Origin: Thermoproteota archaeon
GTDB lineage: Archaea; Korarchaeota; Korarchaeia; Korarchaeales; Korarchaeaceae
NCBI GenBank assembly: GCA_030130125.1
Contig: JARZZM010000013.1
Coordinates: 1-64,000 of the forward strand
Direction: 5' to 3'
DNA length: 64,000 nt
Notes under the pieces: model-generated
What the model was told of the DNA's origin: nothing
Databases searched by the model: none
The model's input: only the letters and a program-made list of their open reading frames with translations
Position numbers and translations under genes: made by a program
Shown: one piece after another, positions 40,136 through 44,245 of the stretch
Position numbering within the stretch: the first letter of the stretch is position 1
Layout of the letters: every line of letters begins with the position of its first letter

Positions 40136-40175
40136 TCAGGTATATTCCCTCCAATAATTCAACTTTTCGAGAGTA

Positions 40176-40182
40176 TTTTTTT
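40176..40182 (+). terminator. T-run terminator after the aroA-phosphorylase pair
   Basis: TTTTTTT about 40 bp after the phosphorylase stop; archaeal termination commonly uses such a T-run without a strong hairpin. Confidence 0.45.
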
Positions 40183-40306
40183 CATAGTTTCTCATCTTTA
40201 TCCATAAATATGAAGATGATCAAGAGTAATTAATCGGATTTTAATTTAAATTTCTTCTTGCTCCCTACCTAATCATCTCCGCGCGCGATAAGCAGGCATA
40301 GTCTCT

Positions 40307-40332
40307 TTGCTACTAACCTAAGTTAGTAGCAA
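40307..40332. repeat. Perfect 11-bp inverted repeat (hairpin)
   Basis: TTGCTACTAAC-CTAA-GTTAGTAGCAA: eleven perfect base pairs and a 4-nt loop. No T-run follows, so it is not an ordinary terminator. It could be a protein-binding site, a recombination site or a small RNA hairpin at the island edge. Confidence 0.65.
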
Positions 40333-40544
40333 TCAGTCCAAAGCAGTGCAACTATCCCATTATTCTACCTCCCGAGAAATGCTATCACTTGCCACTATGC
40401 TACCTCTACCATGATCACCATAGTTGTTTGGAGATAGGATGTGTCCTTCGGTTATGATCGCATTTCAGAGTGAGTATTGGGGATATCATAGCTTGGAGAA
40501 TACTCAAATCGCTTGATAAATTCATCTTGTGAGCCTGCAGATAG

Positions 40545-40566
40545 TAGGGTGGGGATAGCATTAGCT
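40545..40566 (+). repeat. Degenerate third copy of the 38-bp repeat
   Basis: TAGGGTGGGGATAGCATTAG resembles the middle of the 38-bp repeat (TAGGGTGGGGTTAATGCTAC) 36 bp downstream, with mismatches in the second half. Confidence 0.4.
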
Positions 40567-40567
40567 C

Positions 40568-40605
40568 GGGTGCATTTCCCTAGGGTGGGGTTAATGCTAC
40601 CACTC
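40568..40605 (+). repeat. 38-bp direct repeat, copy 1
   Basis: Begins GGGTGCATTTCCC and ends TTAATGCTACCACTC. Identical over 38 bp to copy 2 starting 86 bp later. The inner TTAATGCT also pairs with AGCATTAA after copy 2. Confidence 0.8.
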
Positions 40606-40612
40606 GCGGGCC

Positions 40613-40637
40613 GGAAGGAGGGGATCAACCTCCTTCC
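40613..40637. repeat. 9-bp inverted repeat between the direct repeats
   Basis: GGAAGGAGG and CCTCCTTCC pair perfectly around a 7-nt loop inside the 48-bp spacer between the two 38-bp repeats. Confidence 0.65.
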
Positions 40638-40653
40638 CCCGGGATGAACGTCA

Positions 40654-40691
40654 GGGTGCATTTCCCTAGGGTGGGGTTAATGCTACCACTC
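40654..40691 (+). repeat. 38-bp direct repeat, copy 2
   Basis: Identical to copy 1 (40568-40605). It ends 27 bp before the start of the DUF3800 gene, so it may lie in the promoter. Confidence 0.8.
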
Positions 40692-40717
40692 TGGGAAGGC
40701 AAGCATTAATTGTTTCT

Positions 40718-41416
40718 TTGCCCGTTAGGAGCGTGCATTACCTGTTCGTTGATGAGACGGGAGATCTCGGCTTTGACAAGAAATCCACACGGTACTTCGT
40801 TGTGGGATGCGTCTACACAACATCGGCAGCTAGACTGAGGAAGGAGATGCAGAGAATTAGGGAAAAGCTCAGGAGGAAAGGCTATGCCGAAGATGAGATA
40901 AAATTCAGGTTGAGGAGGAAGGCCCAAAGAATAGAAGATGTGGCCAAGCACGTCCTCAAGGAGATAGTTGAGAACGATAGGCTTGGGGATGTGAGGTTCG
41001 GAGGAATTGCATTGAATAAGGCAACAGTAAACGAGGATCTCAGGAGGAAGCCACGGCATGTCCTAAGGAACTACATTCTAGTGCATCATGTGATATGGGG
41101 GTTGTATCGAGACGCCAACCTGAGGATCAAGGAGGGAGACAAATTAGTGATCATATATGACAAATCCATGGGCCCGAAATCCATATGGGAGTTCAATGAA
41201 TATCTGAGGAGCAAGCACAGTTGGACGAAGGATATGCTTCACAAACCTCCAATCCACTTGGAGGTGGAACATGTGGACTCGAAGGCTGAGCTCGGGGTCC
41301 AGCTAGCTGATCTAGTGTCTGGCGCCATATGGCAAGGTTACGAGAAGGGGAACTGGGAGTATTACGAGATCATAAGGGATAAAATCATGTTCTTAAGGTC
41401 CCTCTTTAAGAAGTAG
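40718..41416 (+). CDS. DUF3800 family protein
   Basis: 232 residues. The N-terminus has the DUF3800 hallmark YLFVDETGDLGF (conserved DE..G), and near the C-terminus the second hallmark VQLADLVSGAIWQGYE. A long basic helical segment lies between (LRKEMQRIREKLRRKGYAEDEIKFRLRRKAQR). The family has an RNase H-like fold with acidic residues and is often met in mobile or defence islands; its activity is not established here. TTG 40718 is the first possible start; GTG 40733 is an alternative. It is followed at once by a GC-rich structured segment. Confidence 0.75.
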   Translation: MPVRSVHYLFVDETGDLGFDKKSTRYFVVGCVYTTSAARLRKEMQRIREKLRRKGYAEDEIKFRLRRKAQRIEDVAKHVLKEIVENDRLGDVRFGGIALNKATVNEDLRRKPRHVLRNYILVHHVIWGLYRDANLRIKEGDKLVIIYDKSMGPKSIWEFNEYLRSKHSWTKDMLHKPPIHLEVEHVDSKAELGVQLADLVSGAIWQGYEKGNWEYYEIIRDKIMFLRSLFKK

Positions 41417-41420
41417 CGGA

Positions 41421-41502
41421 CGGCCCGGGTCCCACCCAGGGCTACCCCTGGCATCATCTCCCAGGCCGCTCCCCCCTATGAGGGGGATACCCGCATGTGG
41501 GT
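41421..41502 (+). ncRNA. Candidate structured RNA after the DUF3800 gene
   Basis: Three nested or serial stems can be drawn. The outer stem is CGGCC-c-GGG (41421-41429) with CCC-a-GGCCG (41460-41468), enclosing hairpin CCAGGG-CTAC-CCCTGG (41436-41451). Next is TCCCCC-loop-GGGGGA (41470-41487), then ACCC-loop-GGGT (41489-41502), followed by CAGGCACACA. The A+T-rich sequence right after it (ATAAAATAAAAAT) makes the GC-rich block stand out. The 3' ACA-containing tail resembles H/ACA guide RNAs, but no guide pocket was identified. Strand assigned from the DUF3800 gene; uncertain. Confidence 0.4.
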
Positions 41503-41531
41503 CAGGCACACATAAAATAAAAATCTACAGT

Positions 41532-41933
41532 TCAGATCATTGATTCCTTTTTCAGGCACCTCCTCAGGTTCTCAGGCGTGAATCTCCCTAACCTACCTTT
41601 CCTCCCTGGCTTCACCCAGATCCACGACTTATCTGATTTCATCAGTACATCAGCGCTCTTAGGGTAGCCTAACACTCCTATGACGCAGAAGGGTTCAGGA
41701 TGCTCCCGCCTAAACGCTTGGTTCACTTTCCACTGTAGCCTGTCCTCATCACTCGCTCCTTTAACCTCGATGAAGGCCCTCCTGTCCCCTACGATCAGCT
41801 CGATGTCGTAGGGAGCGCCAGAGTGGACCCTCGTGAGCCTCACGTCTGTTAGCCCTAATATCGCCAAGCTCTCCTCAATAGCTTCCATCACAACGAGCTC
41901 GAGCTTATACCCAGCTCTAGTATAGTAACTCAC
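41532..41933 (-). CDS. PD-(D/E)XK-like nuclease domain protein
   Basis: 133 residues from the first standard start (GTG 41933). The core is a helix (YKLELVVMEAIEESLAILG), then HSGAPYDIELIVGDRRAFIEVKGAS, which fits the PD-(D/E)XK nuclease strand pattern (Asp in YDIEL, then EVK), then WKVNQAFRREHPEPFCVIGVLG. Such domains occur in restriction enzymes, resolvases and island-borne nucleases. The frame remains open ~250 nt upstream with protein-like sequence but no ATG, GTG or TTG, so the true N-terminus is uncertain. The ~30-residue C-terminal tail is basic. Confidence 0.55.
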   Translation of the reverse strand: MSYYTRAGYKLELVVMEAIEESLAILGLTDVRLTRVHSGAPYDIELIVGDRRAFIEVKGASDEDRLQWKVNQAFRREHPEPFCVIGVLGYPKSADVLMKSDKSWIWVKPGRKGRLGRFTPENLRRCLKKESMI

Positions 41934-42168
41934 GACTCGAGGATGTGGGGCATATAATCTCCCTGAGATCAGCTCATAGTAAGCGGAATGGCCCCCTATG
42001 AAGGGTTCTATGGGATGTTCTCGCGCACTATTGCCAACGCGGGCCGATATCTGAGAAATTTCATCAGCTTCAGCAACTTCGATTTGAATGGAGAGGGGAG
42101 GGAGACAGAGAGTGAGTGCGAAAGAAGGGGAATCGCCAGGGGGAAGTGAGGCTTGAAAATCGAGGTCA

Positions 42169-42330
42169 TCAGAATGTACCCACTACCCTGTCGTATTTGG
42201 GTCCATTGGCCTGCATGTGTGCCCTGTATCTAGCCACATCAACTTCACCAAGCAAGTTTCCTTCAGTGTCCTCGAAGAAGCGGAAGCCAGCTATTCTGAG
42301 CTGTGCCCTGTTATTCTTGTTCCTCAGCAT
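42169..42330 (-). CDS. Small hypothetical ORF, probable 3' half of a frame-broken gene
   Basis: 53 residues (starts MLRNKNNRAQLRIAGFRF, ends DRVVGTF). It overlaps the preceding small ORF (42311-42487) by 20 bp in another frame. Joined, the two read smoothly: NELYNLAMKVHA then LRNKNNRAQLRIAG. This suggests one ~105-residue protein split by a frameshift. Not recognised. Confidence 0.35.
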   Translation of the reverse strand: MLRNKNNRAQLRIAGFRFFEDTEGNLLGEVDVARYRAHMQANGPKYDRVVGTF

Positions 42331-42487
42331 GGACCTTCATCGCCAAGTTGTATAGCTCATTACCTACATCGAGCAGCGCATAGTAAGCGCTCCCATTCCG
42401 AAAGAGCACCAGGGTATAACCCTCACCCTGGTAGGAAGCTAGCCTCCTAACATTACGGGGTATGTAGGAGACGTACCTAACCCTCAT
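42311..42487 (-). CDS. Small hypothetical ORF, probable 5' half of a frame-broken gene
   Basis: 58 residues (starts MRVRYVSYIPRNVRRL, contains YTLVLFRNGSAYYALLDVGNELY). Its ATG overlaps the end of the upstream 134-residue gene, so it would be coupled to it. It ends in HAEEQE and a stop 20 bp after the next ORF starts. Too short for family recognition. Confidence 0.4.
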   Translation of the reverse strand: MRVRYVSYIPRNVRRLASYQGEGYTLVLFRNGSAYYALLDVGNELYNLAMKVHAEEQE

Positions 42488-42881
42488 CATTCATCAACCT
42501 CACGGCATATTCCTTCAACCAGTCCTCATACCCGAAGAAGTAGGAGAGAAACATCCTAGTCTCTTTCATGTTCCCAACAAGGGAGAACTGGCTGACCTTG
42601 ATGCTGAAGTTCCTTCTTACCCTATCACCCACTTTGAGAGCTAGGATCTCCTCGAGTGAGCTATCAGCTATGCCAAAACGTCCCTGCTCAGCAATATCGA
42701 CGAGGAACCACGAGGTATCTGGGAGGAAGAGATAGGTGAGCTTTAGCCCCCTATTTTCCTCGAGGAAGTCAAGCCATATGCCCATAGCATAGGGAAGTAG
42801 GAAGGCATAGCCGTAGTGAACTTCCCCTCCATGAGGTAATTTGGGAAGTTCGGTCCTTATGACTGGGAGTTCCGCGCGCAA
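42477..42881 (-). CDS. Hypothetical protein in the accessory island
   Basis: 134 residues, not recognised. It has aromatic-rich segments (YGYAFLLPYAMGIWLDFLEE, LTYLFLPDTSWFLVDIAEQG) and a basic middle (KVGDRVRRNFSIKV), with no signal peptide and no clear membrane helix. TTG at 42881 is the start of the open frame. It precedes the two small ORFs on the same strand with overlap, so the three form one run; all could be remnants of a mobile element. Confidence 0.45.
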   Translation of the reverse strand: MRAELPVIRTELPKLPHGGEVHYGYAFLLPYAMGIWLDFLEENRGLKLTYLFLPDTSWFLVDIAEQGRFGIADSSLEEILALKVGDRVRRNFSIKVSQFSLVGNMKETRMFLSYFFGYEDWLKEYAVRLMNDEG

Positions 42882-42912
42882 TAGAAATACTGGCTGGGAC
42901 TATAAAGACCAA

Positions 42913-43035
42913 AGTCTGGAGAGCAAAAGTAGGGCTAGGGTGGATTACAGACTCTTTTATCTTATAGACGATAAGAACAAGGTTATCTACACATTGAGGT
43001 TTTCACGCGCGAAAGATAAGCCCATCAGATCCTTA
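42913..43035 (+). pseudogene. RelE/ParE-like toxin remnant
   Basis: In one plus-strand frame the 40-residue stretch SRARVDYRLFYLIDDKNKVIYTLRFSRAKDK closely follows the end of archaeal RelE toxins (pattern YRARLGDYRVIYSV...KVIKILKL..R). The N-terminal half of RelE is missing; upstream sequence in this frame is antisense to another ORF. No antitoxin is adjacent. I read it as a decayed toxin gene. The match is by eye only. Confidence 0.35.
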
Positions 43036-43075
43036 ATTTCGTCCTTCTATAGGCTCTCTCCCCTAATTTTACTCT

Positions 43076-43405
43076 TTATGAAATCTCTGGATAACGAGCC
43101 TCTATTGCTAATGGATAAAGCTCTTCTATGCCAATCTCGTAGAGCTGGTTAAAATCTCGGTCTACCTCTGCGCATAAGTCTATGAGTCTCGCTATGTTAT
43201 GTACTTTGTCAAAGTGTTTACTGTGGAATACTAAGTAAGCTTTCAACGCTTTCTCGACAGCTTGTGCGTGGAAAACTATGACCCATGGCTCCTCACCGAT
43301 CCTAAGGAGCTTCTCAGCAATCCTTAGGTCCGTTTGAGCCTTCTTTAACCACTTTTCTGAGACCTTCTCTCCCTCACTCAATGGGCCTTCCCTCCAGCTG
43401 AGCAT
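43076..43405 (-). CDS. HEPN domain protein (partner of MNT), C-terminally short
   Basis: 109 residues. Opens SEKWLKKAQTDLRIAEKLL and has WVIVFHAQAVEKALKAYLVFHSKHFDKVHNIARLIDLC, the standard HEPN helical pattern. It stops straight after AIEARYPEIS, where homologues usually continue 20-30 residues through a last helix, so it is truncated or has a variant end. HEPN proteins act as RNases or toxins paired with MNT. The start overlaps the MNT gene by 32 bp; TTG 43381, preceded by GGAGGGA, is an alternative start. Confidence 0.8.
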   Translation of the reverse strand: MLSWREGPLSEGEKVSEKWLKKAQTDLRIAEKLLRIGEEPWVIVFHAQAVEKALKAYLVFHSKHFDKVHNIARLIDLCAEVDRDFNQLYEIGIEELYPLAIEARYPEIS

Positions 43406-43718
43406 AGTATGCTATCGACCCCACGACGTTTTTATGCTTTGTATAGTATTCCTCATTAACCACTATTACATCACAGTAAACCCTATTTTGTGAGAGCTTT
43501 CTATATACTTCATACTGAAGCTTCCTAATGATTCTCCTATCTGGGAGATCGCTTACGATAATTAGTAAATCCCAGTCGCTATCTTCTCTGTAGTTACCTC
43601 TTGCACGTGAGCCGAAGAGAATAATTTTCTTGACTTCGACCCCCTCACTCCTAGCTGTATTAACGATTATGTCCTTGATTACTCGCGATAAATATTTGAT
43701 CTCGGTGCCTAACATCAT
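43374..43718 (-). CDS. MNT-type nucleotidyltransferase (antitoxin of a HEPN/MNT pair)
   Basis: About 114 residues. The nucleotidyltransferase signature is IILFGSRARGNYREDSDWDLLIIV (GS...DxD), followed later by a third acidic residue in CDVIVVNEE. In known HEPN/MNT modules the MNT enzyme neutralises HEPN, sometimes by AMPylation of it. GTG 43724 and ATG 43715/43718 are possible starts; a GGGTGA site favours ATG 43718. The gene overlaps HEPN by 32 bp. Confidence 0.83.
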   Translation of the reverse strand: MMLGTEIKYLSRVIKDIIVNTARSEGVEVKKIILFGSRARGNYREDSDWDLLIIVSDLPDRRIIRKLQYEVYRKLSQNRVYCDVIVVNEEYYTKHKNVVGSIAYYAQLEGRPIE

Positions 43719-43918
43719 AATCACCCATAGCTGCCCCTTATAACTTCCATCCTCTTAACTCTATTCACCATCTAGTGTAGCGGAATCTCACATCTCTAGG
43801 TTTGATTAGGGACTGTCCTTCGGCAAAGGTTACAGATGACGGAAGCTCAGCTACTCTAGATCGCGCGGCGCGCGTAAGCCCACAAGCCTAGACCCGCAGC
43901 TGAATAAAATACTGACAT

Positions 43919-44245
43919 TTAGGCATATTCTCTCCAAGTGTACCCACATTTGGTACAGGTATATATCCTCGTGGGCGGTTCGTCAGCGGCTCTGGTCTGG
44001 ACTATCTCCAAGTAAGCCTTGTCGTTACCGCACTTGGGACACTTGGCCTCTACTATCGGCGCGGCCAGCTTCTTGCCTCCTTCCGCTATTATCACGCCAT
44101 CGCTGTCTGAGGCGACTTTGGTTACTACGGCCGTTGACTTCCCCGGATTGCCCTTCATCTCGTATCCACAGCTGGGGCAGTAGTAGACGAGCTCCTTGCC
44201 CACTTTCTTTGGCCTCATGAGAGTTCCGCACTTGGGACAGAACAT
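43919..44245 (-). CDS. tfs: Transcription elongation factor TFS (RPB9/TFIIS-like)
   Basis: Archaeal RNA polymerase cleavage factor of 108 residues. N-terminal zinc ribbon FCPKCGTLMRP...YYCPSCGYE, linker, and C-terminal TFIIS-type ribbon CPKCGNDKAYLEIVQTRAADEPPTRIYTCTKCGYTWREY, including the acidic DE pair that reaches the polymerase active site to rescue backtracked complexes. Normal length. It diverges from the NYN gene over a shared TATA-like box. Confidence 0.95.
   Translation of the reverse strand: MFCPKCGTLMRPKKVGKELVYYCPSCGYEMKGNPGKSTAVVTKVASDSDGVIIAEGGKKLAAPIVEAKCPKCGNDKAYLEIVQTRAADEPPTRIYTCTKCGYTWREYA

Follow-up and report, generated by a model that had tools for sequence, protein, structure and literature searches.

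A DUF3800 gene and a predicted convergent RNA gene form a conserved pair carried by a mobile archaeal island

Here we ask what the GC-rich, foldable DNA at the end of a DUF3800 gene represents in a contig of a Korarchaeaceae archaeon (JARZZM010000013.1; the window, hereafter, is the whole 64,000-nucleotide stretch analysed), and how it relates to that gene. A preliminary description of the window had drawn four helices in a GC-rich segment after the gene, with an AT-rich flank beyond, and both are seen: the segment begins at the DUF3800 stop codon (TAG at 41414-41416), and the DNA beyond it is AT-rich. That description had also envisaged an undescribed protein–RNA pair in which the RNA was a guide, an effector or the autoregulated 3′ end of the mRNA. 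The only known RNA in the whole window at the Rfam gathering threshold is a tRNA-Asn. The positions of all features are collected in Table 1.

Table 1 Features of the island, the DUF3800 gene and the RNA gene (window positions; minus-strand RNA elements are given 5′ to 3′)
Feature	Position	Strand	Basis or remark
Left end repeat of island, 17 bp	40138..40154		Comparison of island ends
Island, 3.8 kb	40155..43920		Absent from genomes G012 and G014
TATA-like element, ~29 nt before the DUF3800 GTG	40704..40712	+	Left edge of conservation; putative promoter
DUF3800 protein gene, 226 aa, GTG start	40736..41416	+	PF12686; type 2 RNase H-like by structural matches
Structured RNA gene, 79 nt (predicted)	41494 to 41416	-	Fold model, covariation, G-U pairs
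RNA helix P1, 4 pairs, closes the RNA	41494-41491/41419-41416	-	Comparative fold
RNA helix P2, hairpin	41487-41481/41476-41470	-	Comparative fold
RNA helix P3, 10 pairs	41469-41460/41429-41420	-	Comparative fold
RNA helix P4, capped by GUAG	41451-41446/41441-41436	-	Comparative fold
Conserved internal loop of RNA	41459-41452/41435-41430	-	Comparative fold
TATA-like promoter element of RNA gene (-31 to -22; predicted)	41516..41525	-	Phylogenetic footprint, five of five copies
Right end repeat of island	43921..43937		At 3′ end of TFIIS-like zinc-ribbon gene

The protein matches PF12686 with 66.1 bits (E 7e-18; the Pfam gathering cut-off is 21). Its start is placed at GTG 40736, which is common to the window gene and to a paralogue on contig C19 of the same genome. 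The TTG at 40718, given as the start in the preliminary description, is unlikely because an in-frame TAG interrupts the corresponding upstream frame of the C19 copy. A Pfam scan gave no RNase HII match in the protein, NCBIfam gave no match, and no sequence relatives were found in the PDB; PADLOC returned weak local matches to DUF3800_VII and to PDC-M04A. The structure was modelled with middling confidence (AlphaFold2 with five homologs as input; pLDDT 61.2, pTM 0.61). The top five Foldseek matches of this model in the PDB are all RNase HII/HIII (best E 2.8e-4). In a VIA structural search, the first 18 rows are all RNase H2/H3 (Z 10.2 to 7.5), led by 1eke_B (Z 10.2, r.m.s.d. 3.2 over 167 residues), and the other rows lie lower, at about 4.5-6.5. 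Residues D6, E7, D142 and D192 do not vary among the five homologs and follow one another as in the D-E-D-D site of type 2 RNase H. The likeness to RNase HII/RNase H2 thus lies in the predicted fold and in these four invariant residues, whereas sequence identity is only about 10% over the aligned part. The model thus resembles type 2 RNase H and suggests a nuclease-like protein, in line with the RNase H-like fold expected beforehand and with the RNase H fold with catalytic rearrangement reported for DUF3800 (PMC10910872).

The foldable segment recurs with the gene. The only other DUF3800 gene of the same genome, that on C19, is followed by a segment 91% identical to the one in the window, and a DNA search of 25 genomes of the order, this one among them, added two true copies, in genomes G011 and G013. 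Two short matches in G004 were judged to be chance; they sit in GC-rich unrelated sequence. A covariance model of these four copies (R1), run over 29 genomes of the phylum, recovered the four and a fifth from another genus (G003:C2:1235-1310; 60 bits, E 7e-10), followed by seven weaker matches (E 0.036 to 0.98). With the fifth copy included (model R2), the five score 82-105 bits over the same 29 genomes and the sole other two listed matches fall below 21 bits; G021:C36, which had reached 25.5 bits with R1, is not among the R2 matches listed. Elsewhere, genome contigs gave one relative, JALSOH010000004.1, which is the same place as G011. In viral contigs, no relatives were found by protein, alignment or RNA pattern.

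All five strong copies adjoin DUF3800 sequence, as four full-length genes (window, C19, G011 and G013) and one C-terminal remnant (G003:C2, L047:1235-1310), which agrees with the window protein at 14 of 34 residues in its best stretch. Just past that remnant is a ResIII/DEAD helicase gene. In five of five copies, the 3′ end of the modelled RNA abuts or overlaps the DUF3800 stop codon. Viewed from the protein, five DUF3800 genes in the 29 genomes exceed the Pfam cut-off and four of them have the RNA beside them. The fifth, G003:C16, is 34% identical to the window protein and is followed by a GC-rich foldable segment that is the best R2 match in 14 kb, at the expected place and on the expected strand; its score is weak (18.9 bits, with an E of 0.021 for the 14 kb), and an unrelated place there reaches 16.9. 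Comparison thus shows the putative RNA to be associated exclusively with DUF3800 among the copies found. It is very unlikely that the RNA is an independent structured one which simply shares its islands with DUF3800, as might be read from the copy that survives beside a remnant: the RNA/DUF3800 junction is identical across different chromosomal sites (window/G011, C19, G013 and G003:C2), and R2 found no strong copy without adjoining DUF3800 sequence in the 29 genomes.

Folding energy by itself is weak and decides neither structure nor strand; comparison is decisive. For the window, z values were -1.47 (plus) and -1.99 (minus) for a 101-nt segment and -2.28 and -2.82 for a trimmed 93-nt segment; the C19, G011 and G013 copies gave -3.23 and -3.66, -0.44 and -1.08, and -3.09 and -1.94, respectively (plus, then minus). 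Folded alone on the minus strand, each of the four close copies adopts one common architecture; in the G003:C2 copy folded alone, P3 and P4 are recovered, P1 and P2 are not, and another 5′ hairpin is favoured. In a model-fitted alignment of the five copies (A5), 97.8% of 134 cells are paired and both sides change in 11 of 27 pairs, a count reached by none of 500 shuffles. A structure-blind MAFFT alignment (A4) has 91.7% paired and 5 of 27 pairs changing on both sides (reached by 1 of 500 shuffles), the difference from A5 coming from gap placement in the fifth copy, and RNAalifold run on A4 returns the same consensus fold. The signal depends on G003:C2: between it and the window, both sides have changed in 9 pairs and 2 pairs are broken, whereas the four close copies by themselves give no significant covariation (2 pairs, reached by 114 of 500 shuffles). 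One four-helix fold, supported by compensatory changes, is common to the five copies. The loops GAUGAUG, GUAG and UGGGA show almost no variation among copies. By eye only, a kink turn is plausible in the internal loop (a GAU bulge, with GA opposite GA).

Which strand is transcribed can be judged from the G-U pairs. Over the 27-pair structure, the five copies contain 15 G-U pairs and 3 non-pairs when read on the minus strand; on the plus strand, each of the 15 turns into an A-C mismatch, which leaves 18 non-pairs and no G-U at all. On this count the RNA is assigned to the minus strand, convergent with DUF3800. A plus-strand RNA, as the 3′ end of the mRNA would be, is rejected on this count and on the promoter footprint described below; the proposed autoregulated mRNA end finds no support, for the predicted RNA is convergent and has a promoter footprint of its own. 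Of the folded segment as first described, the structure proved real; the strand changes from plus to minus, the length becomes 79 nt, and the segment begins at the stop codon itself, where the RNA has its 3′ end. The convergence raises the question of a cis-antisense regulator, a minus-strand RNA that would target the DUF3800 mRNA at its 3′ end. The convergent layout, with contact to the stop codon in each of the five copies, would suit such a role; we nevertheless hold it to be quite unlikely, since the modelled RNA overlaps the coding region by one base (the G of the stop codon) and selection keeps a fold, through compensatory changes and conserved loops, that simple antisense pairing does not need.

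The RNA gene appears to have its own promoter. When the five copies are laid out gaplessly from the RNA start, the block at -31..-22 has a mean pairwise identity of 0.68, against 0.22-0.30 for the flanking blocks, and an A+T content of 90-100%; the corresponding identities among the three copies that diverge most are 0.67 and 0.07-0.30. Archaeal TATA promoters are expected to show fixed spacing, a T-rich block and a variable spacer before the start, and the fit of the block to these features predicts a TATA promoter from which the RNA would start at position 1 (41494). The 3′ end is placed solely by the closing stem. Within the 79 nt, no variable guide segment is seen, the variable ~20 nt lying upstream of the predicted start. 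A second TATA-like element precedes DUF3800 at the left edge of conservation and may be its promoter; the homology of C19 and G013 with the window starts at 40698-40703. Since the homology between G013 and the window runs from 40698 to 41528, the conserved unit would extend from the TATA-like block before DUF3800 through the TATA block of the RNA. Further upstream, a 38-nt exact direct repeat (40568-40605 and 40654-40691, 86 bp apart) lies just before the DUF3800 gene, with one copy in G011 and no further full copy in the own genome.

A transcription terminator, possibly bidirectional, or an insulator might be expected between convergent genes, and the position of the segment is the point in its favour. 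No T-run longer than 4 lies within 40 nt of either RNA end in any of the five copies, so the segment is not, to judge by its sequence, an intrinsic terminator; with the promoter footprint and the conserved loops also against it, we regard a terminator or insulator as most improbable.

The pair resides on an island. In two genomes (G012 and G014), 40154 is joined to 43921 and the island is missing. The 17-bp repeats at its ends differ somewhat between their copies, and a similar repeat occurs in G011, where the same site is used. The repeat coincides with the 3′ terminus of the TFIIS-like zinc-ribbon gene (43919-44245), which would suit an integrase-type insertion. A Phage_integrase gene lies a few kb from the C19 copy, and G003:C16 is also near a TFIIS-like gene, as recognized by eye from the translation. 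Besides DUF3800 and the RNA, the cargo comprises genes for NOV_C, HEPN and nucleotidyltransferase proteins, and comparison shows the predicted pair to be island cargo. The NOV_C-domain gene (41532-41933) is present in the window and C19 copies and absent beside the RNA in G011; it is not part of the DUF3800–RNA unit because the homology of G011 to the window jumps from 41535 to 43903, and for want of that neighbour in G011 the RNA is not a piece of the NOV_C gene either. The HEPN and nucleotidyltransferase genes are adjacent (43076-43724, within the island) and resemble a HEPN-MNT toxin–antitoxin pair. A HerA-like identity considered for L003:1962-3467 was dropped (no Pfam match).

An RNA antitoxin that would restrain a toxic DUF3800 nuclease is the main rival explanation, although an unlikely one. 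It would be type III-like, but with an opposite-strand, single-copy RNA. The nuclease-like fold, the presence on an island with the HEPN/nucleotidyltransferase pair nearby and the retention of the RNA where only a DUF3800 remnant is left (G003:C2) speak for it; against it stands the accessory place that DUF3800 has in certain CRISPR loci, a DUF3800 nuclease having been reported in some VI-F and V-A2 loci (PMC12669027). The family as a whole occurs in phages, on plasmids and within some CRISPR loci.

Among 15 DUF3800 loci from plasmids and phages, which do not constitute a controlled survey, neither Rfam DUF3800 families nor R1 matches were found. The geometry of the archaeal pair, here with a conserved opposite-strand segment that has a sigma-70-type promoter and ends at the DUF3800 stop, returns in four of the 15 loci, two from Streptococcus phages and two enterobacterial. 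In the phages (L059 and L060), TTGACA-17-TATAAT and TTGACA-18-TATAAT are followed by a conserved stretch reaching to a T-run at the DUF3800 stop (L059:2735-2880 and L060:2747-2890). In the enterobacterial prophage-like loci (L066:2274-2420 and L070:2283-2430), TTGACT-17-TAGATT precedes a conserved stretch ending at the stop. Sub-threshold Rfam matches to Spy779816 lie slightly further out in L059/L060, at 2875-2965, and in L066/L070, two pairings drawn by eye, TTTTGGGA/TCCCAAAA and GGCGG/CCGCC, might combine into an interlocked pseudoknot. In Fusobacterium (L057:2651-2830), the DUF3800 stop is instead followed directly, on the gene's own strand, by a perfect TTGACA-17-TATAAT; a possible small RNA comes next, and beyond it Rfam places a cobalamin riboswitch.

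On balance, we favour a mobile two-gene cassette, composed of the DUF3800 protein gene and a convergent RNA gene, in which the RNA probably acts as a partner of the DUF3800 nuclease and the ribonucleoprotein serves the island; binding, activity and benefit are parts that we infer. The RNA, of ~79 nt, would be transcribed from its own TATA promoter and closed by the terminal stem. DUF3800 might bind it through the conserved internal loop (GAUGAUG/UGGGA), the RNA being either an obligatory cofactor or a restraint of the nuclease, and the complex might then act as an accessory nuclease of the mobile element in defence, competition or maintenance. Against a strict ribonucleoprotein stands G003:C2, which keeps the RNA beside a mere DUF3800 remnant, an arrangement that such a reading need not predict. 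In its favour are also the like geometry in the four phage and enterobacterial loci and the earlier report of ncRNAs linked to DUF3800. The protein–RNA pair first proposed stands up well as a conserved locus, with five copies at the DUF3800 stop and covariation. A bolder and rather doubtful possibility is a minimal archaeal RNA-licensed nuclease, in which DUF3800 activity would depend on a small RNA from the convergent strand and the layout would be shared across bacteria and archaea. If this were true, DUF3800 would be a widespread RNA-dependent nuclease of defence or competition outside CRISPR and OMEGA. In the portions of the literature searched, no established function for DUF3800 was found, and an RNA link is reported without explanation. 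The archaeal pair is compact, with a defined strand, a predicted 5′ end, a fold and a conserved loop, and would allow a direct test of RNA-dependent DUF3800; it also suggests seeking an RNA on the strand opposite to DUF3800 genes.

The locus can be compared with three known systems. Like OMEGA/TnpB-type RNA-guided nucleases, it would combine a nuclease of the RNase H superfamily with an RNA at the 3′ end of the gene. Unlike theirs, the archaeal RNA is on the opposite strand and is closed by a terminal stem, and no variable guide joined to a conserved scaffold is found within the modelled 79 nt; DUF3800, compared with TnpB, resembles RNase H2. Type III toxin–antitoxin systems (ToxN/ToxI) likewise pair a ribonuclease-like protein with an adjacent structured RNA on mobile elements. 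Their RNA repeats precede the toxin gene and run in its direction, a layout that the window locus does not have: here the RNA is single copy, downstream and convergent, with its own promoter footprint, and DUF3800, in contrast to ToxN, has a predicted type 2 RNase H-like fold. The closest likeness is to the DUF3800-associated RNA motifs, which are also structured RNAs beside a DUF3800 gene (Weinberg et al. 2017; Rfam DUF3800-I, -IX and others). DUF3800 was earlier found with putative ncRNAs (PMC10910872, citing Weinberg 2017), and the Rfam 15 paper lists RF02969 DUF3800-I and RF02968 DUF3800-IX (PMC11701678), so that the kind of association, thought in the preliminary description to be undescribed, is already on record. 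The archaeal RNA belongs to this kind, its five strong copies all lying beside DUF3800 or a remnant and showing covariation. Among the Rfam models scanned, it matches none of the DUF3800 families, which are numbered -I to -XI: with E up to 10, scans of the locus and its four relatives gave only chance microRNA models. As far as Rfam scans and the literature search reach, it is thus an archaeal RNA family that is itself new and belongs to an association of a known kind.
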